Shown: positions 6,156 to 46,042 of the stretch, one piece after another
Position numbering within the stretch: position 1 is the first letter of the stretch
Layout of the letters: every line of letters starts with the position of its first letter
Origin: a virus
IMG/VR virus record: IMGVR_UViG_3300027759_000056
Coordinates: 1-64,000 of that record
Reading direction: 5' to 3' (one strand)
DNA length: 64,000 nt
Translations under genes and position numbers: made by a program
The notes under the pieces: model-generated
Database searches by the model: none
What the model was told of the DNA's origin: nothing
What the model saw: the letters and a program-made list of their open reading frames with translations, nothing else

Positions 6156-6163
6156 AAATTAAA

Positions 6164-6192
6164 AACCCCACTCAAAAGGTGGGGTTTTTTGT
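6164..6192 (+). terminator. Intrinsic terminator
   Basis: ACCCCAC pairs with GTGGGGT around a TCAAAAG loop, followed by a T-run. It lies between the lipoprotein gene and the convergent small gene ending at 6,193. Confidence 0.8.
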
Positions 6193-6351: not shown

Positions 6352-6435
6352 ATGTCAAAGATAACATATTAACATTTAAGTTAAAACAATTGTGTTTAAT
6401 ATGTGTATAAGTGTATTTATTAACAGTAGAGAATT

Positions 6436-6818: not shown

Positions 6819-6857
6819 ATAATTGTAAATATAAGTAAATTACATTATCTTTGTTGT

Positions 6858-8787: not shown

Positions 8788-8842
8788 TTGGAACAAAGGT
8801 AATAAAAAATTATGATACTAACAAACTATTTATAGAAACTAC

Positions 8843-9187: not shown

Positions 9188-9211
9188 ATTTTTTTCTTAT
9201 ATTTATACCTA

Positions 9212-9493
9212 ATGAAATACCTAATTACAGAAAGCCAAAAAGAAAACATTATTAAAAAGTATATCTTATCAAATTTTGATAGGGTTGATGATGTGTGGTT
9301 TACAAACAGAAGAAACGAAATTGTTATTAATGTTTTGGTAGATAATTTGGATGATGAGTTGACTAAAACAAACCTTTATGAGTTAAGACAAAGTATCATA
9401 AATAAGGCAGATAAAACTTTCAATTTGGGATATAACAGACCCAATGGAGGTTGGGCTTTTTCATTCTCACAAAAAACCATTCAAAAGTTTTAA
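9212..9493 (+). CDS. ITES-tagged small protein (93 aa)
   Basis: Starts MKYLITESQKENIIKKYIL, with TATTTAT 5 nt upstream. A short strand (IVINVLVDNL) and helix follow, similar in layout to its neighbours. The stop is directly followed by the next ATG. Predicted tag cleavage is after E7. Confidence 0.75.
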   Translation: MKYLITESQKENIIKKYILSNFDRVDDVWFTNRRNEIVINVLVDNLDDELTKTNLYELRQSIINKADKTFNLGYNRPNGGWAFSFSQKTIQKF

Positions 9494-9877
9494 ATGGAAC
9501 TTACAAATGTAATAGAAAAATTATTGAATAGAGATTCGTTTTTGAATCTTTTAGAAAATGATATTATTGAAAAATTTGAAGTTAGTGTTAGTCCTTTTGA
9601 ATCCAAAATTTTAGTTATAAAAATGTTTCTGAATACAACTACAGATGAATTTACAACTACAGATGAATTTACAGGTACCGGTGAATCCACACCTCGTTTA
9701 TCTGAGTGGGAAGTAAGGGGGAAATTATGGGAAAATTATAACTTGGACACAGCTTGGTGGCACGCACATATTATTCCAAATAGAATACTAAAACCATTGG
9801 TGGGTAAGGATTATTTTATAAAAATACTTCTTTTTGTTGTGGACAAGAATGGTATTCATTTATTTACTGAAAATTAA
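9494..9877 (+). CDS. Hypothetical protein (127 aa) with TTDEF repeat
   Basis: Paralog of the 8,843 protein. It differs by an insertion TTTDEFTTTDEFTGTGEST coded by an 18-bp tandem repeat. The start abuts the previous stop without a spacer, so translation is coupled. The repeat looks like recent slippage. Confidence 0.65.
   Translation: MELTNVIEKLLNRDSFLNLLENDIIEKFEVSVSPFESKILVIKMFLNTTTDEFTTTDEFTGTGESTPRLSEWEVRGKLWENYNLDTAWWHAHIIPNRILKPLVGKDYFIKILLFVVDKNGIHLFTEN
9635..9670 (+). repeat. 18-bp tandem repeat, two copies
   Basis: Unit ACAACTACAGATGAATTT repeats exactly twice and is in frame in the gene at 9,494. Confidence 0.85.
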
Positions 9878-9879
9878 TT

Positions 9880-10182
9880 ATGAATAAAGAAAATTTAGAA
9901 CAGGGTTTAACAAAACTATTAAAAACTTTTTTCACAAAAAAGTATGATAGAGATTTTTCTGATTTAACCGTTGTGTTAGATGAATATGAAGAAGATGCTG
10001 ATGATACTGATGATGAGGGTAATTGGGTTTCAGCTGAGAGTTATTATTTTACCGTATATTCAGATAATTTTGATGGTTCACAACCACTAATTGAACTTTA
10101 TCAATTATCTAGAGAATTGTTTGGAAATATAATAGGAAGTAAAAATTGGATTGAAATTGAATTCAAAAAATATCCCTTGTAA
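9880..10182 (+). CDS. Hypothetical acidic protein (100 aa)
   Basis: Helical N-terminus (MNKENLEQGLTKLLKTFF), an acidic loop (EEDADDTDDEGNW), then a strand YYFTVYSDNFDG. It follows the previous gene by 2 nt in the same operon. The layout resembles the paralogous pair upstream. No family recognised. Confidence 0.6.
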   Translation: MNKENLEQGLTKLLKTFFTKKYDRDFSDLTVVLDEYEEDADDTDDEGNWVSAESYYFTVYSDNFDGSQPLIELYQLSRELFGNIIGSKNWIEIEFKKYPL

Positions 10183-10213
10183 TTTATCAAACTTATACTA
10201 TATTAGAAATATC

Positions 10214-10399
10214 ATGGAAAAAAACGAAGCGAAAGCACAAGCCTATAATAATCTTTTATTTCAACATTCAAGATTGGAGGAACAAATCAGACAAATCAAA
10301 GCAGAAAACTTTGACTTAACAAAACAAGATGTTGAAAAAATTGACAGAATTAGATTCCAACAACAAATGTTGATGGCTGAAGTTCAGAAATTATTCTAA
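10214..10399 (+). CDS. Small coiled-coil protein (61 aa)
   Basis: Start MEKNEAKAQAYNNLLFQHSR; a longer frame would add 21 residues overlapping the previous gene. The whole protein is a predicted amphipathic helix with heptad-like spacing (LEEQIRQIKAENFDL). It overlaps the next gene by one base (TAATG). Confidence 0.6.
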   Translation: MEKNEAKAQAYNNLLFQHSRLEEQIRQIKAENFDLTKQDVEKIDRIRFQQQMLMAEVQKLF

Positions 10400-10536
10400 T
10401 GAGAATAATCCTTTTATTATTAATCACAGTTTTTTTATTTGGTTGTAGTAGAAAACACTTCAATAGAAAACATCCATACCAACCAAAAAGGGTAAAATAT
10501 CTTGACTCAAGATATGAAAGATGTTATCAACCATAA
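10399..10536 (+). CDS. Small lipoprotein (45 aa)
   Basis: MRIILLLLITVFLFGC is a signal peptide with lipobox LFGC (Cys16). A short basic, Tyr-rich mature part follows. The start overlaps the preceding stop as TAATG. Its size and export signal would fit an outer-membrane spanin partner, but no inner partner is adjacent. Confidence 0.55.
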   Translation: MRIILLLLITVFLFGCSRKHFNRKHPYQPKRVKYLDSRYERCYQP

Positions 10537-10556
10537 TTTTGTGATATTTATTAAAC

Positions 10557-10772
10557 ATGTCAAGAAAAAAATTAATTACCGAACAATATGGTGACGAGGT
10601 TGACTTATTCAAACTTGCAGCATCTTATTACAAAAAACATGGTATGGAAAGAACCAAAAAGGTTTTGACTAAAATTATGGATACTTTGGAAAAAAGAGAA
10701 ACCCCTGATAGAGCACCTAAAGATGTTTTTCCGGGTAAACACTATATCGAAGAGGTAAAAAAAAAGACGTGA
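10557..10772 (+). CDS. LITE-tagged protein (71 aa), possible frameshift donor
   Basis: MSRKKLITEQYGDEVDLFKLAAS carries the tag; TATTTAT is 5 nt upstream. The frame ends at TGA just after a run of nine A (10,757-10,765). A -1 slip there would enter the next frame and append a zinc ribbon. The body ends PGKHYIEEVKKKT. Confidence 0.7.
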   Translation: MSRKKLITEQYGDEVDLFKLAASYYKKHGMERTKKVLTKIMDTLEKRETPDRAPKDVFPGKHYIEEVKKKT

Positions 10773-10957
10773 CGTGTGATAATTGTGGTTGGTCATGGGA
10801 CATTGAACCTAATGACAAACACCCTTATCTTTGCCACCAATGTGGGCACGTAAATAAAAAGACTGAATCTAAAGAAGGTGCTGGAGCGTACGACGCACCA
10901 GCCTTTTCTATGAAACCTGACCATGTTCATTTCAGAAATGTTAAAAATAGGTTTTAA
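10769..10957 (+). CDS. Zinc-ribbon domain protein (62 aa)
   Basis: Two CxxC pairs (CDNCGW and CHQCGH, 17 residues apart) form a zinc ribbon of the CDNCGWSWDI type, which I associate with large phages. If free-standing it starts at GTG overlapping the previous TGA. The A9 run upstream makes a -1 frameshift fusion to the tagged protein plausible. An assembly homopolymer error is the simplest alternative. Confidence 0.6.
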   Translation: MTCDNCGWSWDIEPNDKHPYLCHQCGHVNKKTESKEGAGAYDAPAFSMKPDHVHFRNVKNRF

Positions 10958-10961
10958 CAAG

Positions 10962-10968
10962 TATTTAT
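10962..10968 (+). promoter_or_regulatory. Phage-type promoter motif TATTTAT
   Basis: Type example of the second promoter class: TATTTAT ends 5 nt before ATG 10,974. There is no TAnnTTTG and no ribosome-binding site. Confidence 0.6.
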
Positions 10969-10973
10969 AAGTT

Positions 10974-12350
10974 ATGAAAGTAATTCTTACCGAATCTCAA
11001 ATTAATAGAATTTTAGAACAAAACAATGATTTGATTACAACAATCAAACAAATGGGTTTTGTTCCATCAGGAAATGCAATATTCAAACACAGTCAAAAAC
11101 CTGAATTAACTTTAACCTTAACTGGTGATTATATTATTGTAAAAGATAATGGTAAAGAAATTACAAAAATTAAAACAAGTGAAATTGAAGACTTGGAAGG
11201 TACCATTAAATCAACATCATTAAAAGAACAAGTTGCTCAAGGTGCTCAAGGTGACCCTTATGAATATAAAAAAGAAGGTGGGTATTACTATGCAAGGAAA
11301 AAAGGTTCCAAAAATTGGATACTAACACGAGGTAATATGGCTGATTCAATAGAAAAAAAAATATTTGCAAACAAACAACCAAAAAATCCAACTCAAGTAA
11401 ATCCAACTCAAGTAAATCCAACTCAAGTAAAAACTGAAAAAAAATATTGTCCAGCACATCCTCAAAGTGCCGATGTTAATCCAAACTTAGAAAAAAATTA
11501 TCAAACAGAAGCTGCAAAATTAATTGGTAAGGGCATCCCAACAAGAACTAGTTGTGAGATTTCATTTATTAAATTAAGACCAAAATTTTCTAATAAATCT
11601 TTTTTTGTATTTGATGGTTCTCAAAACTTAATTTATTTATTTGATAAGACAGGAAATTTTGTTGCTAAAAGTTATGTATTGGATGGTGCTGATGCACAAT
11701 CACAAGACACCAAAAAAATTGCACAAGCTCTTTGGACATGGCAACAACAAGTTGAAAGTTTGGGTTTCAAATGGGACCCAAAAATGCAAAAATATTTAGA
11801 TAAGACTAATAAAAATAGAACTTATAGTAATGATTTAATTTACAATAGTATTGATAAAAATGACACTAGATTTTTTCCTAAAGGTGTGTATTCAATTGTT
11901 GGGTTATCAACAGATAAAGAATATGCTGGTGGACAAGATAATTTATTCAGAGTTGAAACATTAGATGGTAAAAAAATTGCCCAAGCAATTCACGGTTTTT
12001 ATAACGAAGCACCAAGAGTTGCTGCGTTAGAAGAATTAAAAACCAAAATGGGTACAAGTGCATCTCCAAAATCAGCATCAGTTCCACAAGAATTTTTGAG
12101 TATGGTTGAGAAATATAAATCCACTCAAAAATTTAATAAATCTTATGGTTGTGTTAATCTACCAACAGATTTCTTAAAAATTGCTAAACCATACGCTGTG
12201 GGAGCAATGTTATTTGTTATTGGTGAAACTCAAAATAATTATTTGGTTCAAAACGCCAACACATTCTTCCAAAAAATGGGTAACGCTGAAAATTGTTCAG
12301 ACCCAACATCTTTAGGTACGGAACTTCCAAATTTGGAAATGACCGCTTAA
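10974..12350 (+). CDS. LTES-tagged L,D-transpeptidase-like protein (458 aa)
   Basis: Opens MKVILTESQINRILEQNND. A linker with three NPTQV repeats lies near residues 138-153. The C-terminal half resembles a YkuD-type catalytic domain: a histidine in IHGFYNE (about residue 339) and SYGCVNLP with Cys393. L,D-transpeptidases use Cys and His to attack peptidoglycan cross-links. With the tag and TATTTAT 5 nt upstream, I infer a virion enzyme that modifies the wall at entry. An endogenous cross-linking role in lysis control is possible. Confidence 0.7.
   Translation: MKVILTESQINRILEQNNDLITTIKQMGFVPSGNAIFKHSQKPELTLTLTGDYIIVKDNGKEITKIKTSEIEDLEGTIKSTSLKEQVAQGAQGDPYEYKKEGGYYYARKKGSKNWILTRGNMADSIEKKIFANKQPKNPTQVNPTQVNPTQVKTEKKYCPAHPQSADVNPNLEKNYQTEAAKLIGKGIPTRTSCEISFIKLRPKFSNKSFFVFDGSQNLIYLFDKTGNFVAKSYVLDGADAQSQDTKKIAQALWTWQQQVESLGFKWDPKMQKYLDKTNKNRTYSNDLIYNSIDKNDTRFFPKGVYSIVGLSTDKEYAGGQDNLFRVETLDGKKIAQAIHGFYNEAPRVAALEELKTKMGTSASPKSASVPQEFLSMVEKYKSTQKFNKSYGCVNLPTDFLKIAKPYAVGAMLFVIGETQNNYLVQNANTFFQKMGNAENCSDPTSLGTELPNLEMTA
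11385..11429 (+). repeat. 15-bp tandem repeat, three copies
   Basis: AATCCAACTCAAGTA is repeated exactly three times in frame and encodes NPTQV units in the interdomain linker. Confidence 0.9.
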
Positions 12351-12390
12351 TTTATTTTTATATTTAACATTTTTTCATTACCTTTGAGGT

Positions 12391-13020
12391 ATGAGAAATC
12401 TTTTATTTGTTTTAATGGTTTTATTCATTTCTTCTTGTGAAAAACAAGAGACTTCAGTAGTTGTAAAACCAAAGGTTGTTAAATCTGTTAAAACCCAAAA
12501 AACTATATTTGTTGTTCCTATGGGTAAAACCAGTAATTTTGATGTTAACTACATTGTTAATGAACTAAAACAATTTTACAAATGTGATGTTAAAGTATTA
12601 CCTAAAGTTGAAACACCTGCAATTGCCAAAGTAAATGGTTTGAAAAGATATAGAGCTATCGATATTTTGAATTTCTTATCTACTAAGTACAAAAAGAATA
12701 ACGGAAAAGTATTGGCACTTACTGATGGTGATATTTGTACTGATAGAGAACTTAACGGTATTGTATATAAAAATTGGGGTGTATTTGGATTGGGTAGATT
12801 AAACGATAAACCTTGTGTTATCTCAACTAACAGATTCAAAACAAACTATTACGACAGGTTGTCAAAAGTAACCATCCATGAAATTGGTCATACCTTGGGT
12901 TTAAGTCACTGTGATAACGATAAGAATTGTCTTATGAGTGATGCTAAAGGTAAAGGTGGACAAGTAGATTCTGAGAAAAAATGGATGTGTGATAAATGTA
13001 GAAAAAAAATAAAATTATAG
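12391..13020 (+). CDS. Archaemetzincin-like metalloprotease lipoprotein (209 aa)
   Basis: Signal peptide with lipobox ISSC (Cys16). The C-terminus has HEIGHTLGLSHC, a Cys six residues later, CLM, 17 residues, then CDKC. This follows the archaemetzincin signature HExxHxxGx3C...CxM-x17-CxxC, with one extra residue between the first two cysteines. It should be a zinc protease anchored in the envelope. TACCTTTG ends 4 nt before ATG, so it belongs to the host-type class. Its substrate is unknown. Confidence 0.75.
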   Translation: MRNLLFVLMVLFISSCEKQETSVVVKPKVVKSVKTQKTIFVVPMGKTSNFDVNYIVNELKQFYKCDVKVLPKVETPAIAKVNGLKRYRAIDILNFLSTKYKKNNGKVLALTDGDICTDRELNGIVYKNWGVFGLGRLNDKPCVISTNRFKTNYYDRLSKVTIHEIGHTLGLSHCDNDKNCLMSDAKGKGGQVDSEKKWMCDKCRKKIKL

Positions 13021-13033
13021 TATTTATAATCAT

Positions 13034-13348
13034 ATGGGACGTTTCATTCTAACTGAAGAAGATAAAAAAGAAGTCATGAACAATTACTTTGGTGAATTTA
13101 ACCAAAAGTTTTACGATTTTCTAAAGTCCAACATTGAAGTCGAGTCTCACAATACCGAACATTACCCAAGACCTTTTGTTCTATTGTATATTGATGGTAA
13201 ATCAAAAATACTTAATGATTCAAAAAAATACTTGGTAAGTAAAATAGTTAGTGTATTCTCAGATGATTTTCCAAATGTTCCTGAGTCATCGTTAAGACTT
13301 ACCGCAAAAAAGTTTATTGACGAACTCAAAAAAGAATATTACGGTTAA
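13034..13348 (+). CDS. LTEE-tagged small protein (104 aa)
   Basis: MGRFILTEEDKKEVMNNYF starts 6 nt after TATTTAT. The body alternates strand (FVLLYIDGKSKIL) and helix like other small tagged proteins here. Tag cleavage is predicted after E8. Function unknown. Confidence 0.7.
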   Translation: MGRFILTEEDKKEVMNNYFGEFNQKFYDFLKSNIEVESHNTEHYPRPFVLLYIDGKSKILNDSKKYLVSKIVSVFSDDFPNVPESSLRLTAKKFIDELKKEYYG

Positions 13349-13398
13349 TTGCAATTTTCTTCACATACAAATATTTATTTACAAGTCCCCTATTACAC

Positions 13399-13414
13399 TT
13401 AGTGAATAAACCTT
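13399..13414 (+). promoter_or_regulatory. Third upstream motif TTAGTRAATAAAC, copy 1
   Basis: TTAGTGAATAAACCTT precedes the gene at 13,437. Related copies lie at 42,039 (TTAGTAAATAAACTT) and 62,433 (TTAGTAAATAACACTT), each shortly upstream of a gene. It may be a further promoter class. Confidence 0.35.
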
Positions 13415-13436
13415 AAATTTTAATGTATGGAAGACA

Positions 13437-13811
13437 GTGAACCGATTAGAAACTACAGCAACAGCATTTATCAAGCCATCATACAGGTTTATAGACAAAC
13501 TTGGGGTAACCATGTTCAAAGAGGGTGATGATACCTCTTATCTATTAACATTATTTGTTGACCCTTATTCTTTAAGAAAATATTTGGAAATAAGTCCCAA
13601 TTTTATTAGTGGTACTGGTAAAATCAAAAAAGATTTAACGGACAGACCATTTAACTCATTTACACAAATTGTCGATGAGACAAATTCAACAAGTGTTAAC
13701 AACGCTAAAAAATTAACACAGAATATTAAAAAAGATTTCTATTTGGCAAGAAAAATGTCAGGAGTTGAATTTCCATCGGGTTTAGTTTCATTGCGTATTG
13801 TTTTTCAGTAA
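13437..13811 (+). CDS. Hypothetical protein (124 aa)
   Basis: The frame begins at GTG; the nearby ATGs at 13,423 and 13,427 lie in other frames and give at most a 33-residue peptide. A strand segment LLTLFVDPYSL resembles DVTLYVDPNIL in the protein at 36,581. Start choice is uncertain and a sequencing frameshift near the N-terminus cannot be excluded. Confidence 0.55.
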   Translation: MNRLETTATAFIKPSYRFIDKLGVTMFKEGDDTSYLLTLFVDPYSLRKYLEISPNFISGTGKIKKDLTDRPFNSFTQIVDETNSTSVNNAKKLTQNIKKDFYLARKMSGVEFPSGLVSLRIVFQ

Positions 13812-13832
13812 AACTTTATTTATCTTTGTTTC

Positions 13833-14135
13833 ATGATGTCAAAACAAAAAAAATCTGCTTACAATTTCGCTTATAAAGTTGGTATTACTGTGTTTGTAAT
13901 TTTAGTGGGAATAGTTTCACTTATTGTCATTACTCTAACAAAATCTTGTAATACTTTTACAAAAACAAACATCCAACATCATGATTCTCTTATAACTATG
14001 ATGGATACGGTATATCTACCAAATCCAAACGCTGTTAAAGTTGTTATTCACGATACTGTTTATAAAACAGCGACGTGTAACAAAAAACATTGTGATGTTG
14101 TAAAAACTACTAAGGATACGTCAAAGTCTAAATAA
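13833..14135 (+). CDS. Single-pass membrane protein with extracytoplasmic tail (100 aa)
   Basis: A short basic N-terminus, one transmembrane helix (VGITVFVILVGIVSLIVITL), then about 60 polar residues with CNKKHCD. TATCTTTG ends 4 nt before ATG. The layout matches an inner-membrane spanin or similar anchor; no partner is certain. It overlaps the convergent gene by 8 nt. Confidence 0.6.
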   Translation: MMSKQKKSAYNFAYKVGITVFVILVGIVSLIVITLTKSCNTFTKTNIQHHDSLITMMDTVYLPNPNAVKVVIHDTVYKTATCNKKHCDVVKTTKDTSKSK

Positions 14136-20075: not shown

Positions 20076-20510
20076 TTAATTATTTTTTTCTACATTAGTA
20101 TAGTAGTAATTCAAAAATTCATAAACTAATGACTCAAGAATTTCTAATTTATTATCATTCAATTCTTTTTGTTCCAAGAAACTTTCACCATCAACTTCAA
20201 TACTGAAATACCTACTTGTCATTACAAACGAAGGAAAACCATCATTACAAGGTGTTAATTCAATCTTGTCAATGACTTCCATGGCATCGTTCCAACAATA
20301 AAAAGGGTTACAAATATCGTTCTCAAAATGTGTAACAATATCACCATCATCTTCCATGTGAACCAATTCACTGATAGAATAAAAGTCTCGAGGTAATTCC
20401 CATTTTGATTGTACAACCACTTTTTCGGTTAATGTTTCATTGTGAGTACACGTTACTGTTTGGGTAAATTTGAATCCCATAAAATGAAAAAGTTGATTTG
20501 ATTTGTCCAT
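20076..20510 (-). CDS. Hypothetical protein (144 aa)
   Basis: Start MDKSNQLFHFMGFKFTQTVT, 7 nt after TATCTTTG. The longer frame reads through a terminator and is rejected. Strand-rich, with a C-terminal helix (NDNKLEILESLVYEFLNYYY). No family recognised. Confidence 0.65.
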   Translation of the reverse strand: MDKSNQLFHFMGFKFTQTVTCTHNETLTEKVVVQSKWELPRDFYSISELVHMEDDGDIVTHFENDICNPFYCWNDAMEVIDKIELTPCNDGFPSFVMTSRYFSIEVDGESFLEQKELNDNKLEILESLVYEFLNYYYTNVEKNN

Positions 20511-20544
20511 AGTCCAACAAAGATAATAAATAAATTTGATAAAA

Positions 20545-20570
20545 AAAAGACCCGATTTCTCGGGTCTTTT
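20545..20570. terminator. Bidirectional intrinsic terminator
   Basis: AAAAGACCCGA pairs with TCGGGTCTTTT over a 4-nt loop. A and T runs on both sides allow use in either direction; here both flanking genes are on the minus strand. Confidence 0.75.
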
Positions 20571-20630
20571 ATAAAAGAGATATATATATAAAAACACCCA
20601 AAGGGCGATGAATATATAAATATTGTTAAT

Positions 20631-20852
20631 TTACAATTTTTCTACACTGCCAACCTTTTCTTTCATAGATTTTTTGAAAGTATCTTTGAAAGTTTGTTTT
20701 GTTTGGTCTTTTTTACCCAACGATTTAAAATGTTCTTTGTGTAGATTCTTAAAATTATCAAATAGTTTTTCAGTTCTTCTGACTTGAGTTAGTGTTTCAC
20801 AAGAATCTAAAACTTTCAAAACCCAATTAAAATCTTCATTTATATTTTCCAT
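20631..20852 (-). CDS. Hypothetical helical protein (73 aa)
   Basis: MENINEDFNWVLKVLDSCET, Lys-rich and helical throughout (FKNLHKEHFKSLGKKDQTK). It is flanked by terminators on both sides and is therefore a single-gene unit. No family recognised. Confidence 0.55.
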   Translation of the reverse strand: MENINEDFNWVLKVLDSCETLTQVRRTEKLFDNFKNLHKEHFKSLGKKDQTKQTFKDTFKKSMKEKVGSVEKL

Positions 20853-20863
20853 ATTACAAATAT

Positions 20864-20897
20864 AATAAAAGGTGTTGAAATAAACAACACCTTTTTA
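20864..20897 (-). terminator. Intrinsic terminator of the endolysin block
   Basis: AAAAGGTGTTG pairs with CAACACCTTTT (11 bp), downstream of the endolysin on the minus strand, with T-rich sequence following. Confidence 0.8.
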
Positions 20898-20901
20898 CAA
20901 A

Positions 20902-21723
20902 TTACGCCAACAAATGGTAATATTCTTTGAAGTGTTTAATTCTGTCAGGTAAACCTATGGTTCCACCATTAACTCTTTTTGTTACTGCCGTTACAGTAGC
21001 ATCGTCAGCTCCTTTATCAGAAATTGCATTTAATCCGTTCTTACTGAAGAACCAACCTGCAGATGCCAATGCGTATTTTGTGGCAACCAAATCAGGATTT
21101 GCTACAGTATCTTCACCGATTGATTTAGCGAAAGATGTGTAGTTTTCTTTCCCTGTTAATTGGATATAACCTCTACCTCTGAATTTATAACCTTCTTTAG
21201 TTTCTTCACCACCATTACCCATTCTACCACCATAAACTTTTGATGCGATTTTTTCAGGGTTTCTTGCGTAAGATTCCGCAATGTTACCAGGGAAATATTT
21301 TGGGAAAATCTTTTTAAGACCGTCAGCCGAATAGTTTAAGTTTTCTTGAGTTGCTTTGAATCCACCTGATTCGTGTCCACATTGTGCCAAGAAATGAGCC
21401 AATCTTAAAGGAGTGTTAATTTGGAATTTTTCCATTACTGTTGGAATCTGTGTGATTACTGCATCAGGTACATGTCCTTTTAATTTTTCCAAATTGATTG
21501 GACCACCTTTAGGAATTACAACATCTTCTTTGATTAACGTACCTAATCCAAGTTTCTCTAATGATGCTGGTCCGATGATTCCATCAGCCACCAATCCATT
21601 TTTTGTTTGCCATTCTTTAATTGATTTTTCAGTTCCAGGACCAAAGTTACCATCGGCAACTAATCCTAATTTTGCTTGAAGAGCTTTTACCTCTTCGCCT
21701 TTTGAGCCATTTTTTAATATCAT
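20902..21723 (-). CDS. GH19 endolysin with peptidoglycan-binding domain (273 aa)
   Basis: Residues 1-55 form a PG_binding_1 domain (GSKGEEVKALQAKLGL...DGIIGPASLEKL). Residues from about 80 form a GH19 chitinase/lysozyme domain, with ESGGF carrying a likely catalytic Glu, then RGRGYIQLTG and FFSKNGL. It should cleave peptidoglycan glycan strands at lysis. TATTTAT lies 17 nt upstream. There is no signal peptide, so release would need a holin, possibly 14,811. Confidence 0.9.
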   Translation of the reverse strand: MILKNGSKGEEVKALQAKLGLVADGNFGPGTEKSIKEWQTKNGLVADGIIGPASLEKLGLGTLIKEDVVIPKGGPINLEKLKGHVPDAVITQIPTVMEKFQINTPLRLAHFLAQCGHESGGFKATQENLNYSADGLKKIFPKYFPGNIAESYARNPEKIASKVYGGRMGNGGEETKEGYKFRGRGYIQLTGKENYTSFAKSIGEDTVANPDLVATKYALASAGWFFSKNGLNAISDKGADDATVTAVTKRVNGGTIGLPDRIKHFKEYYHLLA

Positions 21724-24017: not shown

Positions 24018-25609
24018 AACATTATTTTACCACCAGTTAATATCTGATAGTTTAAGAATTTATCCGAGTATTGATATGTTCCTGAGAAACTCACATTGAA
24101 TTTAAAGTTTTTGGAAATTGAATAATCCCAAGAACTAAATGGAACCAATAAGACTCCTGAACTCCACCATCTACCTTCGTAGAACTTTGTAAACGGTGAA
24201 TACACGGCTAACATTAATATATTTGCATTAACTTTCTTACCAACCTTAAACATATAAAAACCACCACCAACAGCTGATAAATTTGTGAACACTTCATCAC
24301 TCAAACTACCCACAGTAAAGTTAGCACCACCCATAAGTGACAATCTACCATATCTGTGAGATTCAAGTGCGGTTGTGGTATTAAATAAATTTTTTTCAAA
24401 ATCAACCATAGATGAGTTGGCAAATATTGCCGTATTTGTCTTCTTTTTATTTGTTAATGCGGTGTAAAATGTAAGATTTGAATTATTAATTGTTGTTGTA
24501 AAATTTAATAGAGCTCCTTTTGCTCTTGAATTGTCCGTATTTGACTTTGTCATGGACATAGTAGCCCTAAATTGGTTAGAATTGTCCTCAGCACTCCTAA
24601 TAACAACAATATCACCAGTTCCTATAATAGAACCTGTTTTTGCGGTAGTCTTTGAACTTGGTTTTCCACCACCTGAACTACTTGATTCCGCAGCATTTGC
24701 TACAGAATTGGTTGTTCCACCATTTCCACCCGATTTATTGTCTGTTGGAGTGGTTGTAGGGTCATTTTTGGGTTCTGCAGTACCATTTCCGCCAGAACCA
24801 CCTGAATTCCCCGTATTTGACCCTGAATTCCCCGTATTTCCACCATTTTGACCCGTATTTGACCCTGTGTTACCACCTGAATTCCCCGTATTTGACCCCG
24901 AATTCCCCGTATTTCCGTTATTTTGGGGTGTTTGAGGGTTAGTTGGTGGGTTTGTACCCGTATTTTCACCAGTTTGTGGTGTTTGGGGGTTATTTCCCGT
25001 TTGTGGCTCATTTTTGGGTGTTTGTGGCTCATTTTGGGGTGAATTTGAGCCAGAATTTGGGTTATTTTGACCGATATTTCCTGTACTTGTACCCGATTGG
25101 GTGTTATTACCCCCATTTTCGGTGGTATTTGTACCCGATTGGGTGTTATTTTTGTCATTTTTACCGTTTTTTCCCGAACCTTTCCCCGAACTTTCACCTG
25201 ATGATGAATTATCTACACTATTACTTAATCCACCTGAAGTTATATTTCCAACACTACTAGCAACCGTCATTGTAGATACTGCGGTTACAGAACTTAATGT
25301 TGAGATGATATTTTGTGTTATTATTGTATTTTGTGATACTTGTGTCTTTGTTTTGATTTCATCACAAGGTGCTGAGGCGTATTTGGTTGACAAATCACCT
25401 ACCCATCCTGCAAAATTACCATTATCAAAGTCATCTTTTGTGAATGTATTAACATAACCCAAATAATTTACGGTTACTGATGAATTGGCGTTAGGTATAT
25501 TAATTACCTTAAGTTTTTTTGAACAAGGGTCCACATACGAATATGTGAACCCCTGACCAAAACTGATAGAGGATACCAACAATAATAATATTGAGAATAT
25601 CCACTTCAT
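24014..25609 (-). CDS. Exported protein with long Gly/Asn/Ser/Thr/Pro linker and C-terminal barrel (531 aa)
   Basis: Signal peptide, a small Cys-containing N-terminal domain, and a low-complexity linker of about 140 residues (TGNSGSNTGNSGG-type repeats). The C-terminal ~190 residues have amphipathic strands ending in an aromatic barrel strand. The layout suggests a surface-exposed disordered stalk anchored by an outer-membrane barrel. It sits downstream of the CsgG-like gene in an overlapping operon. No named family recognised. Confidence 0.7.
   Translation of the reverse strand: MKWIFSILLLLVSSISFGQGFTYSYVDPCSKKLKVINIPNANSSVTVNYLGYVNTFTKDDFDNGNFAGWVGDLSTKYASAPCDEIKTKTQVSQNTIITQNIISTLSSVTAVSTMTVASSVGNITSGGLSNSVDNSSSGESSGKGSGKNGKNDKNNTQSGTNTTENGGNNTQSGTSTGNIGQNNPNSGSNSPQNEPQTPKNEPQTGNNPQTPQTGENTGTNPPTNPQTPQNNGNTGNSGSNTGNSGGNTGSNTGQNGGNTGNSGSNTGNSGGSGGNGTAEPKNDPTTTPTDNKSGGNGGTTNSVANAAESSSSGGGKPSSKTTAKTGSIIGTGDIVVIRSAEDNSNQFRATMSMTKSNTDNSRAKGALLNFTTTINNSNLTFYTALTNKKKTNTAIFANSSMVDFEKNLFNTTTALESHRYGRLSLMGGANFTVGSLSDEVFTNLSAVGGGFYMFKVGKKVNANILMLAVYSPFTKFYEGRWWSSGVLLVPFSSWDYSISKNFKFNVSFSGTYQYSDKFLNYQILTGGKIML
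24776..25180. repeat. Imperfect tandem repeats coding the low-complexity linker
   Basis: Short repeats around GAATTCCCCGTATTTGACCC on the plus strand are reused many times and produce long overlapping false frames on both strands. Confidence 0.8.
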
Positions 25610-27065: not shown

Positions 27066-27131
27066 TTGGGGGTCAGTGACCCCCGTGTATTAATTAGTTT
27101 TAACTGTTGTGTATTAGTTAGTTTTAACTGC
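27066..27131. repeat. Hairpin and 22-bp direct duplication after the T9SS gene
   Basis: GGGGGTC and GACCCCC form a short hairpin near 27,069-27,085. Two near-identical 22-bp copies (27,086-27,107 and 27,110-27,131, one mismatch) cover the end of the 27,114 gene, so the last codons are duplicated just past the stop. Confidence 0.65.
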
Positions 27132-29006
27132 TCTTTTTACTTCTATCTCTTCTTCTTTTTTCAAAACTGCCAAGTACATTCCATCAGATAAGTCTGACAT
27201 ATCAACTGTGTAAGTGTATTTTCCTGAAGGAGTCATATCACCCATTACACTTTTAACTTCTCTTCCTGTTGCATCAATAATACTTAAAGTTGTATTACCT
27301 TGTTGTTTTATGTTGAAAGAAATTGTTAAATTTGATGTAAATGGATTTGGATAAAGTTCCATATCATTACCAACGTAAACGTGTCCACCCATTCTGAATA
27401 CCTGAACAATACCATCAGTAGGTGTAATGTTTAAATCAATTGCGTCTTTGTTACCAGCAAATTTTCTTGTAACATATAATGGACTTACTCCCCATTGACT
27501 TTGAGGTTTCTTTGCAGAAAATTGAAGTGTGTAAATTAACTCACCATCATTGAATAAGTTGACGTTATTAGTTGGGTCATACCCACCCCATTCAACTTTG
27601 TTCTCTGATGTGTTTATGTATGATAACCATAAAGAAGATTTCAATTCGTTTTTAACGCTTTTGAATTCCAACAATGAAGTATCGTATTTAATCATCAATT
27701 GTAATGCTCCAACGTTGATACCACCAGTCTTTAATCTAACTGGAATGTTTACCAAGTTTCCATCATCAACTTTTAACAGAGGTAAATTAACTTCTATTGT
27801 TTCAAGAATGTTGTCATATTGTGTTGTAACATCAATGATGTGTTTTTTAGCATTTGCAGGATTAACAATTTCAATTGGAGTCATACGAGCTCTGTTGTAA
27901 CCAGTTCCGTTAACGTCACCCATACCTAATACATAATAAGTTACAGAGTCAGGTTGACCTGCGATGATTTGGAATGTGAAGTTTGTTACACCAGGAACTG
28001 TAGATTGTTTACTTGAACTTGAACCGTTAACTGAACTATATTGACTTTCAGTGAAGAACAAGATGTCTTTTCTACTGTTAGCCCAAGAAGTGAATCTTCC
28101 TGAAACTCTTGCGTAAATTCCATAAACGTCTGATACAGTGATTTTATCATCGTTGTTTACGTCAGTAGAATAGAAATCAAATCCAGATGGTGTTAAAGTT
28201 CCTAACACAAATTTGTTAGCTCTTTGTGCATCTGCAGTTGAAACAATTGCTCCCACACCCATCGTATCACCTTTAACCGCGATTCTAACATCCCAAGCAG
28301 TTGTATCAATTTCCACATTAGTAAAATTGAATCTACCTTGAGTATTAGTAACCGATGTTTGAACATAAGACCAAGTTGAAGATGTTTTTAATTTCTTCTC
28401 TAAAGATACACTTAGGTTTTTAGATGCAGTTCCTGTTACGTTAACAAACTTTCCTTTAAACGACATAACTTGTGGTTTAAATTTACCACCAAAGTTTTTA
28501 AGTGTTAAAGTGTAGTCAAGACCTGATTGAGTTGTTGCTGTTTCAGGAAAAGACGCTGTACCAGTAAACTTCATGTCGGTCACACTCAAATATGTTGTTG
28601 AAAGTGCTGTTGTGTGTTTTAATGTAACTTGAAATAATCTACCATCGGGAATAGTAAAAGAACTATTAGTTCCTGTGTAAACCATTGTGATTGTTACATA
28701 ACCACCAGCCGCATTGTCAACATATTGTAAGTCTTGTGAAAATGACGTGTTCATAGATGTTACGGTGTCAACTTTAGCAAAAGCCGCATTGTCGTAAAAC
28801 ACTCTATATTGAACTGCGGTAATGTTTGTTGATGTGTTGTTGTAAAAACACAATCCTATATTTGTTTTCCCAGACCTATAGGTACCTGTTTGATAGGTTG
28901 AGTCCAACATAATGTGAGCACCCGTGGTACTTGGAGTTGGACATGTTTGCGCAAAACCTATCACTGAAGCGCAAATTGTGATTAATGACGTAAGAAGTCT
29001 TTTCAT
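27114..29006 (-). CDS. Secreted cohesin/dockerin-like protein with T9SS sorting domain (630 aa)
   Basis: Signal peptide (MKRLLTSLITICASVIGFAQ). A dockerin-like repeat DVNNDDKITVSDVYGIYARV lies mid-protein, and cohesin-like beta segments lie on both sides. The C-terminal ~80 residues (LYPNPFTSNLTISFN...GMYLAVLKKEEEIEVKRAVK) form a type A T9SS sorting signal. It should be secreted and attached to the cell surface by the host type IX system. It is the first gene of the 29,006-20,902 block. TATTTAT lies upstream on its strand. Confidence 0.8.
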   Translation of the reverse strand: MKRLLTSLITICASVIGFAQTCPTPSTTGAHIMLDSTYQTGTYRSGKTNIGLCFYNNTSTNITAVQYRVFYDNAAFAKVDTVTSMNTSFSQDLQYVDNAAGGYVTITMVYTGTNSSFTIPDGRLFQVTLKHTTALSTTYLSVTDMKFTGTASFPETATTQSGLDYTLTLKNFGGKFKPQVMSFKGKFVNVTGTASKNLSVSLEKKLKTSSTWSYVQTSVTNTQGRFNFTNVEIDTTAWDVRIAVKGDTMGVGAIVSTADAQRANKFVLGTLTPSGFDFYSTDVNNDDKITVSDVYGIYARVSGRFTSWANSRKDILFFTESQYSSVNGSSSSKQSTVPGVTNFTFQIIAGQPDSVTYYVLGMGDVNGTGYNRARMTPIEIVNPANAKKHIIDVTTQYDNILETIEVNLPLLKVDDGNLVNIPVRLKTGGINVGALQLMIKYDTSLLEFKSVKNELKSSLWLSYINTSENKVEWGGYDPTNNVNLFNDGELIYTLQFSAKKPQSQWGVSPLYVTRKFAGNKDAIDLNITPTDGIVQVFRMGGHVYVGNDMELYPNPFTSNLTISFNIKQQGNTTLSIIDATGREVKSVMGDMTPSGKYTYTVDMSDLSDGMYLAVLKKEEEIEVKRAVKTN

Positions 29007-29488: not shown

Positions 29489-29500
29489 GTATTTATATAT

Positions 29501-30601
29501 ATGTTTGATTTATTAACAGAAGTAAAAAAAATGAAAACAATGATGGGTCTTATTAAAGAAGACCAAGATTTGGAATCCATTAACAAACACGCACAAAATA
29601 TTCTGAATATTCTAAAATTCAGTAATTTATACTCATCAACAATTAAAAAACTTATTGATAAAATTATTAAATTTGGTGAAACCAACATTATTGATTTTGA
29701 TTTGATTGAAAAAAATCTTAAAAATATAATGTTAAAAAAAGGTAACCGTAAGAAAAATGTTGAGGATTATTTTTTAAGAATATTTACATCATTAGAGTTT
29801 AGAGAAAAAGGTATTTACGGTATTGAACCCGAAAGTGAAGATTTTGGTTCTAGTATTGAAGACGTTTCAATAGTACCTAAAAAAATCTTTAATAAAGAAT
29901 TATACGGATTACAAGTTGAATTAATTAAATTACAAGATTGGTTAGCTGAAACAGGTAAAACCGTTCTTATTGTTTTTGAAGGTAGAGACAGTGCTGGTAA
30001 AGGTTCATCAATTAAAAAATTTACAGAAAACATGAATCCAAAAGGATTCAAAGTAATTCAACTTGGAATTCCAACACCTGAGGATAGAGCTGATTGGTGG
30101 GGTAGATATAGAAAACAAATTGAACCGGGTAAAATTAATTTATTTGATAGAAGTTGGTACAATAGAGGTTTAGTTGAACCAGTTGCTGGTTATGGTACTC
30201 CTGAAGAATACGAAGACTTTATGGAAAACGTTGAAAACTTTGAAAACTCATTGGTTGAAAATGGTGATTTCCTTTTCAAACTTTGGTTTTCAATCGATAA
30301 AGAAACCATGGCAAAAAGATTTAAACAAAGATTAAGTTCACCATTAAAGAAATGGAAATATTCACCTAACGATGAAAAGATGTTAGATTTATGGGATAGA
30401 TTCACTGAATTCAAAGAAAAATTATTTGACAAAACATCAACAGTAAACCACCCTTGGGTTATATTGGATTCATCAGATAAAAGAGTATCAGGATTAAACT
30501 CCATAAGATATGTTTTACAGAACATACCATACAAAGGGAAAAATAAAGAATTCTTAAGTAAAGAATATCCCGAAGCATTAACAATATTAAAACCAGAATA
30601 A
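29501..30601 (+). CDS. ppk2: Polyphosphate kinase 2 with LLTE N-terminal tag (366 aa)
   Basis: Residues 1-20 (MFDLLTEVKKMKTMMGLIKE) carry two [LI]xE sites. A ~110-residue spacer precedes a full PPK2 domain: Walker A GRDSAGKGS (G161 region), DRADWWGRY, Walker B-like DRSWYNRG (D216), KLWFSIDKETMAKRF. PPK2 transfers phosphate from polyphosphate to nucleoside mono- or diphosphates. TATTTAT lies 4 nt before ATG. The tag suggests packaging in the virion, so the enzyme could raise NTP levels at once after injection. Confidence 0.85.
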   Translation: MFDLLTEVKKMKTMMGLIKEDQDLESINKHAQNILNILKFSNLYSSTIKKLIDKIIKFGETNIIDFDLIEKNLKNIMLKKGNRKKNVEDYFLRIFTSLEFREKGIYGIEPESEDFGSSIEDVSIVPKKIFNKELYGLQVELIKLQDWLAETGKTVLIVFEGRDSAGKGSSIKKFTENMNPKGFKVIQLGIPTPEDRADWWGRYRKQIEPGKINLFDRSWYNRGLVEPVAGYGTPEEYEDFMENVENFENSLVENGDFLFKLWFSIDKETMAKRFKQRLSSPLKKWKYSPNDEKMLDLWDRFTEFKEKLFDKTSTVNHPWVILDSSDKRVSGLNSIRYVLQNIPYKGKNKEFLSKEYPEALTILKPE

Positions 30602-31392
30602 TGAAAGATTTTATCCGTTATATATTAAAAGAAAACTTACCAAAAAAAGGTATTGTAATAAAAGAAGGTGTTGAAATCTCAGAAGGGTTAAAATACCATA
30701 GAGAATATGATTTACCATTAGTTGAAAATGTATATAGACCATTTTCTGATGAATATTTTTCATTGATAAATGAAGCTCGTGGTCTTTGGAAAAATGGTTT
30801 AGTAGAGCTTTGTGAAGATGATGAATGGTTATTAAAAACCGATATTGGAAAAACAGGAATATTTGAAGGTGAGGAGGTTTGGTTAGATATTCCATTTTTA
30901 GATGAGTCAGAACTTGATGAAATAGGATTACATTCATCAGGAGTAGAATCGTTTTTAGAAAAATTAAAAGAAAATCCTGAGTATATTGATAAGTTAGGTT
31001 TTGATTCATTATCAGATATTAAACATTATATTCATAAAAATGGTATCTCCGATTGGGAAGAATTAAGAAGTGAATTAAATGATTTAATGGGTGAATCAAT
31101 TAATGAAGCTGAATATAAAGGTAGAAAAGTTAATTTAAATTCACCATTTAGAACTTCAGGTGGACCAAAGAAATTTGCTGTATATGTAAAAGCACCAAGT
31201 GGTAATGTTAAAATTGTTAGATTTGGTGACCCAAATTTAAGAGTTAGAAATAATAACCCTGGAGCAAGAAAAAGTTTTAGAGCACGTCACAAATGTGATA
31301 CAAAACATGACAAAACCAAAGCAGGTTATTGGGCTTGTAACGTTGCTAGATATAGAAAGAAATTAGGGATTAAATCTTCATCTCCTTGGTAA
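30601..31392 (+). CDS. DUF5872-like candidate virion protein (263 aa)
   Basis: The start overlaps the PPK2 stop (TAATG). Two processing-type sites are seen: VEISE-G near residue 29 and SINE-A near residue 165. The C-terminal ~95 residues (KIVRFGDPN...NPGARKSFRARHKCD...GYWACN) match a domain common in T4-related phage proteins (DUF5872). I infer a head protein cut into parts, with the basic Cys-containing C-domain released. Confidence 0.7.
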   Translation: MKDFIRYILKENLPKKGIVIKEGVEISEGLKYHREYDLPLVENVYRPFSDEYFSLINEARGLWKNGLVELCEDDEWLLKTDIGKTGIFEGEEVWLDIPFLDESELDEIGLHSSGVESFLEKLKENPEYIDKLGFDSLSDIKHYIHKNGISDWEELRSELNDLMGESINEAEYKGRKVNLNSPFRTSGGPKKFAVYVKAPSGNVKIVRFGDPNLRVRNNNPGARKSFRARHKCDTKHDKTKAGYWACNVARYRKKLGIKSSSPW

Positions 31393-36580: not shown

Positions 36581-37543
36581 ATGGACAATTCAACCATAGA
36601 GCAGATTAACAAGATTTTTGGAACTAAAAAATTAACTTGGTGCGGTAATTTTTTAAGGTATGATAAGAATGCCAGACAAGATTGTTACAATTTTACTTTT
36701 CAAATCAAAGAAATCAAACCGATGATTTCTGTTGGTGAGTGGAAAGACCATGCCCTTGTTGATGTTACTTTATATGTTGACCCAAATATCTTACTTGGTA
36801 AACTTGTGTCTGGTGAATACAAAGACATTTGGGGGGATAGTGAACAGTTACTACGTTTTTACCCAATTAAAAATGGTACTGCGGAAAAAATAACAAATGC
36901 CTTAAAATTAGTTTCTAATTTAGATGTTATTGTAAAATCAATCAAACCGGTTCTTATTGGTGGTGAAGAAGAAACTATTACAGAACAAAAAGTGAGTAAT
37001 AGTTTAATTCGTAATATTGTTAGAGAAATTGCCTTCGAAATAAAAAAAGATTTGCACGGTAAACGTAAAAAGAATATTGGGAGTTACGATATTGGAATGG
37101 AAGAGCCTGTGGATATTGTTTTATTTGTTAACCCAACACCAAACAAAGATGAAAATATAAAACCATTGGACATTCAAGGGTATTGGGATGAAGATGAAAA
37201 TCAGATTGAAATTGATATTGACATTGATGATGATGCCGATATGGATGTCATGTATGAATTGATTGGTGAATTAAATGATGTGGTAACACATGAATTTGAA
37301 CACGCAAAACAAACAAAAAGAGGATACGTTTTTCCTGATGTTGAGTATACTCAACCAAAACGTTATTACTTACAACAACACGAAATTGAAGCTCAGGTTG
37401 CTGGTTTCAAAAGAAAGGCAAAATTACAGAAAAGACCTATTGAAGAAATTATTCGAGAGTACTTCCAAAAAAGAGGTATTAGAAAAAGTTTGATTAATCT
37501 TTTGGTGGAACGATTAATGGACTACTACGTAAATAAAAATTAA
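36581..37543 (+). CDS. Putative zinc metallopeptidase with internal ITE site (320 aa)
   Basis: N-terminal ~130 residues are a strand/helix domain; ETITEQKVSNSLIRNIV contains an internal [LI]xE site that may separate two parts. The C-terminal part has DVVTHEFEHAKQT, an HExxH motif, and QQHEIEAQV as a possible third-ligand helix. TATTTAT is 5 nt before ATG. This domain order occurs in large phages, perhaps as a structural protease. Overlaps the next gene by 4 nt. Confidence 0.7.
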   Translation: MDNSTIEQINKIFGTKKLTWCGNFLRYDKNARQDCYNFTFQIKEIKPMISVGEWKDHALVDVTLYVDPNILLGKLVSGEYKDIWGDSEQLLRFYPIKNGTAEKITNALKLVSNLDVIVKSIKPVLIGGEEETITEQKVSNSLIRNIVREIAFEIKKDLHGKRKKNIGSYDIGMEEPVDIVLFVNPTPNKDENIKPLDIQGYWDEDENQIEIDIDIDDDADMDVMYELIGELNDVVTHEFEHAKQTKRGYVFPDVEYTQPKRYYLQQHEIEAQVAGFKRKAKLQKRPIEEIIREYFQKRGIRKSLINLLVERLMDYYVNKN

Positions 37544-38154
37544 GATTTTAATATTCTTTTAACAATCTCCTCAAGAGCTGCTGTTGAAACGTGCATTATT
37601 CCTGTTGCTGCCAATGTTTTAACAAGTGTTTCTATTTGGTCAGGAGATAAACTATTACCTTGTAATGCGATTGTTAAATACCCCAATAACGGTATCAAAT
37701 AAATGTATGACATAATATCAGTCAAAAACGCTGCGGAGTTCCCTAAGGTACCTAAAAATCCCTTAAACACGGTTACCAATCTCTTTGTTTTTAATACAGA
37801 ATATCTAAATTCATTTTCAATATTGTCTTCTTTTATTTTTGGTAGAATTTCTTTTAATACATCTTTACCTTCATTGAATACAATACAAATGGTTCCAACA
37901 ATAATCATTAATTTTTGGTCTTCGGTCAAATGTGGGAATTTGTTATTTATTAAATCCATTAATGGTTGCATTAAACCACCAACACCAGCACCAAAAGTTA
38001 ATAATATTCTAAGATTAAATTTTAATCTTTTACTAATTCTTTTATATAGATTGGCTGAAAAGTCCGTACTTTTTTCATAAATTGTTGACAGGATATCTGG
38101 CATCCCCTCAACAAGAATTACTTTTGTTTGTTCTTCCGTAATTAATACGTTCAT
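37540..38154 (-). CDS. LITE-tagged multi-pass membrane protein (204 aa)
   Basis: MNVLITEEQTKVILVEGMPDIL carries the tag, with possible sites after E7 and after VEG. At least three hydrophobic segments follow (LRILLTFGAGVGGLM, LMIIVGTICIVF, IYLIPLLGYLTIALQ). TATTTAT is 4 nt before ATG. A membrane protein with a head-type tag could be ejected to form a pore or block superinfection; this is inference. Confidence 0.7.
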   Translation of the reverse strand: MNVLITEEQTKVILVEGMPDILSTIYEKSTDFSANLYKRISKRLKFNLRILLTFGAGVGGLMQPLMDLINNKFPHLTEDQKLMIIVGTICIVFNEGKDVLKEILPKIKEDNIENEFRYSVLKTKRLVTVFKGFLGTLGNSAAFLTDIMSYIYLIPLLGYLTIALQGNSLSPDQIETLVKTLAATGIMHVSTAALEEIVKRILKS

Positions 38155-43921: not shown

Positions 43922-46042
43922 ATGAAAAACGAAATACTAAATGAAGGACAATTAGCTTTGGAAAAAGCACTTTTGATGATGAAATATGATTCAAAAGATA
44001 CTCTAAGTGAAAATTTAGAAAAAATAAATTTAAGTGAACAAGTTCAATCATTACTTGGAGCGGCTGAACGTGGATTAAGTAATGCTGCTGCAACTGAGAT
44101 TAAAACTGTTTTACAAAATCTTAGAAAACCACTACAAACTATTGATGGAGTTGTTTTATCAAATGGTGACGATGTGGTAAAGGCATTAAAGGCTGGTAAA
44201 CTTGCCGATGATGGTATCAGAAGTATTAGAACTGCACTTTTGAAAAGTACGACTAACCCAAAAATAAGAACAAAATTAATTGATTCATTATTGGAGAACC
44301 CACAAGTTCTTTCAAAATATGCAGGAAAAACTGAAAATCAAATTAAAGCGGCTTTTAAGAAATTGGGTTATAGTGATGAAGCAGCACTTGAAACCGCAAC
44401 AAAAATAGTAAACAAAAGTGCTGGTGGAGTTGGAGCTGGGGCTGGAGCCGCAGCAAATACCACGGTTAACGCATCAAAATTAGCATCACTTTATTCAAGT
44501 GTAAAAGGGTTAAAATGGAAAGGTCTTCCAAGAATTGTAAGATGGGGTTTAACAGGTGCTGGGTTATATGCGGCATATAGATATTTTATCCATGAAGAAG
44601 AATTGTTTCCACAATGTTTAGAAAAGAAAATACCTGATAATTTATTATCAGATGCCTTAAAAAACAAAAGTGTGATTATTAAGTCTACAGGTAATAGACA
44701 AATTGATACTTTAGGTGGTTTGAAATTTTATTTAGATTCAAACAAAGTATCATCTGTTAATGGTTCTTATACTGGTACGTATAGTTGTGATGGTGATAAT
44801 TTAATGAGTGATATTGGTGGAAGTGAATTTATTGTTACCGGTTCAGTAGTTGGTTCAGGTTTAGCTTCCGCAGCAGCACCCGCAACAGCTTCCGCAGCAG
44901 CACCCGCAACAGCTTCCGCAGCAGCACCCGCAACAAAAGTGGCCCCAATTACTGATACAAAATTATTAAATACGTTAAAATTCGATTATGAGTTTCCGGG
45001 TGATAAAGGATACACATACGCATTTGTTCCAACAGTAACTGAAGATACCTCAACTCAAAGTGGAACATGGTATGCTAAAAGTAACAAAACGGGTAAAGTA
45101 TTCGATATTACTAAAAACTATCCACAAACAGCTGAAAAATTAAATACACAATTTCCAAATGCGGCTACAACTGGAAGTCAAACAACTCAAACATCAAATG
45201 AGTCAAATAAAACAACAACCGCAGCTGATGACGTATCTTCAATACAAGGTAAAAAACTTGAGGTTCAGTCTGTGAGTCCTGATTTACAAACACCAAAAAA
45301 TATTAATTTAGCAACAACTATGAATCCAAATACAAATAATTCAGATAAAATTGGTCCTAAAACCGAAAGTCTAAAAAAATCATTAAAGAAAAATTTAATT
45401 GAAGCGAAAGAAAATAAAGAAAACTTAATGGTTGAAACAAATATAGTTGAAAAACGTTTTAACTTTATTGTTGAAGGTAAAACTTTTAATAATTTAGAAG
45501 ACCAAAATAATTTAGTTGAATCTGTAATTTCTGAAATAGGGTACTTAAAGAATCAAGGATATACCTCAAAAGCAATCAATGAAGGTTTATTCTCAATGTT
45601 AAGTAGTTTATTAGGTGGTGGAGCTCAAGCGGTACCAGCGGTATTTGGTGAATACATAGCAAATTGGATAACAGGTAAATTACAAATACCAAAAAATAGT
45701 TATATGAACGGTGTTATTGTCGCGTTGATTGGTAACTTGAATATTGCGGATTATGATAGATTCTTCAGTGATTGCAGATTCGCATCAAATAAAATTGCTG
45801 ACTCGTTAATTGAGGGTTATTTAGTTCAGTTACAAAATCAAAAGGATGTTAATTCAGGAGCTTCAGGATTTATTGTGTCGGCATTAAGAAACTCAGTTGT
45901 TGATTATTTTGCTGAAGATAAAAATTCATTAATACAAATATTAGAGGACAAAATTGGTGAATTCCTTTGTCCAAAACTATCAAAACTTTCAGGAATAATT
46001 GGTGATAAGGCCAATGAAATGAAAGCTAAAGTGGTAGCATAA
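43922..46042 (+). CDS. Large tagged candidate ejection or structural protein (706 aa)
   Basis: Starts MKNEILNEGQLALEKALLMM, with further [LI]xE sites (INLSEQ, LIEAK, FIVEGK, AINEGLF) that could give several mature pieces. It has an Ala-rich linker (ASAAAPAT x3) and a C-terminal domain of ~150 residues (SMLSSLLGGGAQAVPAVF...). It begins 5 nt after the preceding stop. I infer a polyprotein-like internal head component. Confidence 0.65.
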   Translation: MKNEILNEGQLALEKALLMMKYDSKDTLSENLEKINLSEQVQSLLGAAERGLSNAAATEIKTVLQNLRKPLQTIDGVVLSNGDDVVKALKAGKLADDGIRSIRTALLKSTTNPKIRTKLIDSLLENPQVLSKYAGKTENQIKAAFKKLGYSDEAALETATKIVNKSAGGVGAGAGAAANTTVNASKLASLYSSVKGLKWKGLPRIVRWGLTGAGLYAAYRYFIHEEELFPQCLEKKIPDNLLSDALKNKSVIIKSTGNRQIDTLGGLKFYLDSNKVSSVNGSYTGTYSCDGDNLMSDIGGSEFIVTGSVVGSGLASAAAPATASAAAPATASAAAPATKVAPITDTKLLNTLKFDYEFPGDKGYTYAFVPTVTEDTSTQSGTWYAKSNKTGKVFDITKNYPQTAEKLNTQFPNAATTGSQTTQTSNESNKTTTAADDVSSIQGKKLEVQSVSPDLQTPKNINLATTMNPNTNNSDKIGPKTESLKKSLKKNLIEAKENKENLMVETNIVEKRFNFIVEGKTFNNLEDQNNLVESVISEIGYLKNQGYTSKAINEGLFSMLSSLLGGGAQAVPAVFGEYIANWITGKLQIPKNSYMNGVIVALIGNLNIADYDRFFSDCRFASNKIADSLIEGYLVQLQNQKDVNSGASGFIVSALRNSVVDYFAEDKNSLIQILEDKIGEFLCPKLSKLSGIIGDKANEMKAKVVA
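44864..44935 (+). repeat. 24-bp tandem repeat, three exact copies
   Basis: Unit GCTTCCGCAGCAGCACCCGC plus AACA repeats three times in frame and encodes ASAAAPAT linkers. GC content is far above the surroundings. Confidence 0.9.

Follow-up and report, generated by a model that had tools for sequence, protein, structure and literature searches.

The window analysed here, a stretch of 64,000 nt, is part of a T4-type virus record of 111,976 bp, and its ORF list contains a gene for a polyphosphate kinase 2 (PPK2) that carries a long N-terminal extension. This locus raises the question of what such an extension does on a metabolic enzyme and whether the enzyme is carried in the virion. By analogy to T4, the best explanation (probability roughly 0.55) is that the gene encodes a late-made class I PPK2, which an N-terminal capsid-targeting sequence, analogous to the one on T4 internal proteins, directs into the head.

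The enzyme

The gene and its catalytic parts are located as follows.

29501-30601, plus strand: PPK2 coding sequence, 366 aa; Pfam PF03976, E 3.8e-66; kept in 80 viral contigs
29888-30547, plus strand: PPK2 kinase domain, residues 130-349 (Pfam PF03976)
29981-30001, plus strand: Walker A motif GRDSAGK (G161 to K167), invariant in 28 sequences
30146-30166, plus strand: Walker B motif and class signature DRSWYNR, residues 216-222, invariant in 28 sequences

The PF03976 score of 223.4 bits, compared to a gathering score of 22.3, places the protein in this family, and the complete PPK2 of the original prediction, with a Walker A motif near residue 161 and DRSWYNR near residue 216, was confirmed in all three respects. 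In an alignment of 28 non-redundant relatives with 58-94% identity to the window's PPK2, the Walker A, Walker B and lid Arg/Lys residues D163, K167, D216, R217, R273, R277 and K283 are all invariant. They align with D62, K66, D117, R118, R174, R178 and K184 of FtPPK2, which are substrate-binding/catalytic residues of that enzyme (Marked as such in PMC4748334). The class-specific residue after Walker B, which is Asn in class I PPK2s (PMC8776046), is N221 in the window's protein. Among the NCBIfam PPK2 models TIGR03707 matched best, with 255.6 bits and thus below its equivalog cut-off of 301.8; the protein is class I-like, and an equivalog relationship to the P. aeruginosa enzyme is not called. 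With an AlphaFold model derived from the 28 sequences (mean pLDDT 73) as query, Foldseek ranked the class I PPK2 of F. tularensis first (E 1e-21); the matches of the whole model were chiefly PPK2s and other P-loop kinases, and the helical segment of the extension received no assignment from them. Structural alignment to the class I PPK2s of F. tularensis (4YEG/5LLB) and S. meliloti (3CZQ) revealed approximately 40-44% identity in the kinase domain. These enzymes have Walker A, Walker B, the lid residues and the class I Asn in common with the window's PPK2, but none of the cellular relatives examined has the extension of about 120 residues. On these sequence features, the enzyme can be identified with high confidence as a polyphosphate kinase 2. 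The same model search also matched a BFVD entry of an uncultured marine phage, A0A8D9CF65 (419 aa, E 6e-24, 33% identity), which is named a "thymidylate kinase" and is probably a misnamed PPK2.

Nucleoside diphosphates are phosphorylated by PPK2s of class I (PMC8776046) and, with the window's PPK2 taken as a member of this class, would be its expected substrates. PPK2A of P. aeruginosa strongly favors polyphosphate consumption and the PPK2 of C. glutamicum favors synthesis (PMC8776046); the catalytic direction of the window's enzyme cannot be predicted from its sequence.

The N-terminal extension

The kinase domain is preceded by about 120 residues opening with MFDLLTEVKKMKTMMGLIKE, in agreement with the extension of approximately 110 residues, starting LLTE...GLIKE, that had been noticed at first reading. 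It consists of three pieces.

29501-29560, plus strand: N-terminal tag, residues 1-20 (MFDLLTEVKKMKTMMGLIKE), with two [LI]xE motifs (LTE 5-7, IKE 18-20), conserved in PPK2s
29567-29806, plus strand: helical segment, residues 23-102, four predicted helices in the AlphaFold model
29807-29866, plus strand: acidic flexible linker, residues 103-122, based on sequence and a pLDDT of about 40

From residue 31 onward, the pLDDT of the helical segment is mostly 76-88. When the whole protein was used as query, 80 viral contigs were retrieved, most alignments began at residue 1-8, and an N-terminus of the same kind was present in nearly all of these contigs. Cellular relatives align from residue 107 or so onward (74 in one case), and the median number of residues before Walker A is 84 for them vs 160 in the window's PPK2. 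When loci of the 80 best cellular PPK2s were searched with profiles of the whole extension and of the helical segment, no significant match emerged; the sole suggestive match of these profiles was the PPK2 of a 735-kb phage (E 0.03-0.04). Within the PPK2 alignment, the glutamates of the first and second motif are conserved at 0.86 (E7) and 0.75 (E20), respectively. In a few PPK2 relatives (L067, L076, L070), the first [LI]xE site is weak or missing, which counts against a packaging role of the tag. In a further contig (L081, around 9929-11000), the tag and kinase halves of the PPK2 lie in different frames, which may be due to recombination, decay or sequencing error.

The tag on unrelated proteins

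Few proteins other than PPK2 matched a strict regular expression of the tag, and a profile was used instead. This profile (A1, 22 positions) was built from PPK2 tags alone (28 distinct variants) and searched against eight related phage records, in most of which it matched non-PPK2 proteins at E < 0.001. In related genomes, this search placed the PPK2-type tag at the start of a dozen or more unrelated proteins, among them a P-loop protein starting with MNLQENILRIKEVMGLLSEGKS and a glucosaminidase starting with MNLYEDITRIKEIMGVDSE (Pfam E 7.7e-14); a further start among the matches is MNLHENIKRIKEVMGLLVEQ. In the DNA near the PPK2 and head genes, the best A1 matches with E < 1 sit at protein starts, with a frameshifted PPK2 contributing one of these tags; reversing the sequences as a control left no match below E 1. 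A tblastn search of the phage collection with the 22-aa tag consensus, a query too short for this program, returned no match.

Additionally, a second tag type (MKxIITESQ) was described by a profile built from eight proteins of the window's own record, which at E ≤ 1 gave 9 matches in that record and 1-21 in other records. The window's tagged proteins are listed below.

1830-2795, plus strand: unrelated protein with PPK2-type tag (MNLQENIYRIKQMMGLLTEEED), E 6.4e-6 with the tag profile
2979-3488, plus strand: second tag type (MKRFVITEDEKNHISKMYGLIYEN), second-tag profile
4058-4357, plus strand: second tag type (MKIIITESQ), second-tag profile
4359-4649, plus strand: second tag type (MRYIISESQ), second-tag profile
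9212-9493, plus strand: second tag type (MKYLITESQ), second-tag profile
10974-12350, plus strand: second tag type (MKVILTESQ), second-tag profile
13034-13348, plus strand: second tag type (MGRFILTEED), second-tag profile
37540-38154, minus strand: second tag type (MNVLITEEQ), second-tag profile

After removal of 22 residues, the tagged proteins fell into 54 BLAST groups, a set in which the regular expressions admit some chance members among the singletons; PPK2 makes up one of these groups. The comparison of N-termini thus identifies the tag, with high confidence, as a module common to PPK2 and unrelated proteins. This speaks against the idea that the tag is a PPK2-specific N-terminal helix serving oligomerisation or polyphosphate binding, even though residues 2-14 are modelled as a helix by AlphaFold at low confidence; together with the option that the enzyme is inactive, which conflicts with the invariance of all catalytic positions checked in the 28 sequences, this explanation is highly improbable.

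Large proteins with a tag-like start were also seen, namely a 706-aa protein of the window (43922-46042, plus strand) that begins with MKNEILNEGQ and has no significant family match, and others in L120 and L077. The glucosaminidase domain mentioned above lies behind its tag at 1483-1944 of L126, and this protein is possibly a head-carried cell-wall enzyme.

A prohead protease motif and the T4 precedent

The record encodes a gp21-type prohead protease (83379-83813, within 83226-83954 of the record) and, around 86-88 kb, the capsid protein gp23. The protease was found in 9 of 9 records and gp23 in 8 of 9. In T4, cleavage by the protease gp21 follows L/I-X-E, and ten N-terminal residues of the internal protein IPIII are enough for packaging (PMC9026906); such tags occur on diverse packaged proteins of T4 (PMC3012670). 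Both tag types described here contain [LI]xE, at which the prohead protease of T4 cleaves; among the tags this motif takes the forms LLTE, LLNE, ILSE or FLINE/S (the slash marking the presumed cut position). All eight aligned capsid proteins have LINE/A or LINE/S at residues 57-61, the window's own phage having LINE/A. By analogy, this site would correspond to the place where T4 gp23 is cut. In the annotated phage collection, Flavobacterium phage vB_FspM_immuto (immuto) and Rhodothermus phage RM378 are among the closest matches by capsid protein. Two proteins of immuto, immuto26A_41 (25061-25456) and immuto26A_188 (111675-112139), start with MKKQILSEQF.RMQ.LAGIITES, similar to the PPK2 tag, and a T4-like HFIAEA is found near the start of the protein preceding its prohead protease.

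As with the T4 internal proteins (IPI-III, Alt), a short N-terminal tag with an L/I-X-E motif is common to unrelated proteins of the window's phage, and its genome also encodes gp23 and a gp21-type protease. Unlike in T4, the tagged proteins are many more, the cargo is a metabolic kinase, and packaging is a prediction. The T4 tag comprises ten residues, whereas the window's tag is longer and of other sequence; its RIKxMMG half is without known counterpart, and only the hydrophobic-x-E pattern is shared with T4's own targeting sequence. The distance of about 55 kb between PPK2 and the head genes of the record counts against packaging as well. On balance, the parallel to T4 makes it somewhat probable that the tag is a capsid-targeting sequence, and the virion-type tag of the original prediction has gained strength, as it recurs on unrelated proteins, carries the prohead-protease motif and occurs in a phage that encodes the protease.

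A different explanation is that of an ordinary auxiliary metabolic gene, by which PPK2 regenerates GTP/ATP or stores phosphate for DNA and virion synthesis in the late-infected cell, with the tag serving another cellular purpose such as docking to a phage protein. The activity of class I PPK2s on nucleoside diphosphates (PMC8776046) would suit this role, and ppk2 on viral contigs has already been described as an auxiliary metabolic gene and reported to be transcribed (PMC13188868). We nevertheless regard it as rather unlikely, since T4 provides a direct precedent for reading such a tag, which bears the prohead-protease motif and occurs on many unrelated proteins of a protease-encoding phage, as a packaging signal. 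The passages considered on viral ppk2 describe no tag, packaging or architecture (PMC13188868), and in the library searched no paper treats polyphosphate kinase together with huge phages or jumbo phage. Viral ppk2 itself is already known, and its packaging would be new.

Promoter boxes, timing and host

The following box lies 11 nt before the PPK2 start codon.

29490-29497, plus strand: TATTTATA box of late-promoter type

The late-type promoter that had been suspected upstream of the gene thus holds up: within 70 bp upstream of genes, the TATTTATA octamer occurs 23 times in the record, with 1.3 expected. TATTTAT stands upstream of PPK2 in most non-redundant relatives and is also seen ahead of the gene for the prohead protease, of several genes of the virion module and of many tagged genes. 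Under two strict tag definitions, the box is commoner at tagged genes (P 0.02 and 0.008), whereas with a loose definition the association is not significant (P 0.17), so that it hinges on how the tag is defined. As the box is common to PPK2 and virion genes, late timing of PPK2 may be deduced.

Other genes are preceded by TAnnTTTG boxes at about -12, which we take to be a Bacteroidota promoter element. Together with a protein containing a type IX secretion sorting domain, these boxes fit a Bacteroidota host. This protein (27114-29006, minus strand) combines a cohesin-like domain with the C-terminal sorting domain in a phage genome and adjoins several short genes with signal-peptide-like starts. 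In window positions 1-14000 and the whole record, TATTTATA and TAnnTTTG boxes are often located some 12 nt ahead of the start codon, giving the impression that many transcripts are nearly leaderless.

PPK2s of huge phages

In a PPK2 tree with the 80 best cellular matches as cellular sampling, the PPK2s of uncultured phages of 635-735 kb (LR756501-3, LR745206) and the window-type PPK2s form one clade (support 1.0), the sister group of which includes several Bacteroidota PPK2s. The huge-phage enzymes share with the window's protein the long N-terminal extension and a tag recurring in the genome, but differ in tag sequence, and their helical segment is just marginally alike. Their N-termini (MINNFIKFINEE, MISNYDNFMNES, MPVYNFHKFINEE) are of a FINE type that resembles the T4 tag sequence, and this tag is nearer to T4's targeting sequence than that of the window. 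FINE-type starts occur on many proteins of these phages, with 32-47 matches per record at E ≤ 1 to a profile (A4) that was loosely aligned and included the huge-phage PPK2 tags themselves, so its weaker matches are unreliable. In the huge phages, the prohead protease is no more than a weak match. In the translations of a 642-kb phage (L102), PPK2 lies near genes resembling NAD salvage enzymes (4153-6615 and 20459-21466).

A possible role at entry

The tag on unrelated proteins, its [LI]xE motif, the LINE/A site of the capsid protein, the promoter box and the tags of the huge phages together argue well for a late and probably packaged PPK2. The enzyme would be made late in infection, bind the prohead scaffold via tag residues 1-16, be cut by the gp21-type protease at LTE7 and/or IKE20, and be ejected together with the DNA. 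Early in the next infection, it might then transfer phosphate from host polyphosphate to GDP/ADP; such action at entry is plausible. More tentatively, these phages may inject at least ten tagged proteins including PPK2, with PPK2 working on host polyphosphate before phage gene expression and thereby either paying for the first transcription or lifting the silencing of AT-rich DNA.

That the injected enzyme is directed solely against silencing, and not at energy supply, by removing polyphosphate that aids Hfq in silencing AT-rich foreign DNA, appears improbable. Polyphosphate and Hfq do silence prophages and mobile elements at AT-rich DNA in E. coli (PMC10954037), and the packaged T4 protein IPI is a counter-defence protein (PMC3012670). 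However, this silencing was shown in E. coli only, nothing here links it to Bacteroidota, and polyphosphate consumption by the window's PPK2 is an assumed direction.

If packaged, the PPK2 would be, to our knowledge, the first virion-carried polyphosphate enzyme, and phage entry would be tied to polyphosphate, a host store built under stress. The tag would moreover allow head cargo, mostly proteins of unknown function, to be predicted from sequence in a widespread group of large phages. As Flavobacterium phage immuto is in culture and bears a similar tag, the proposed packaging is open to a direct test in this relative.

The downstream neighbour

The gene following PPK2 is the next feature on the same strand.

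30601-31392, plus strand: overlapping gene 3′ of PPK2, 263 aa, PHROG 7595 (a family of unknown function)

A "DUF5872-like head protein" had been proposed for this ORF, and this label fails. DUF5872 was rejected, as Pfam gave no family for 30601-31389 of the window even at E ≤ 10; the only family match is PHROG 7595 (unknown function), its phage relatives are annotated as hypothetical, two as "HVA1 family", and nothing in these matches marks the ORF as a head protein. The 1-nt overlap claimed alongside was found as described, the last base of the PPK2 stop codon TAA (30599-30601) being the first base of the ATG of the next ORF. Homologues of this ORF are located near PPK2 in 21 of 29 loci, mostly as the very next gene downstream (offset +1 in 16).
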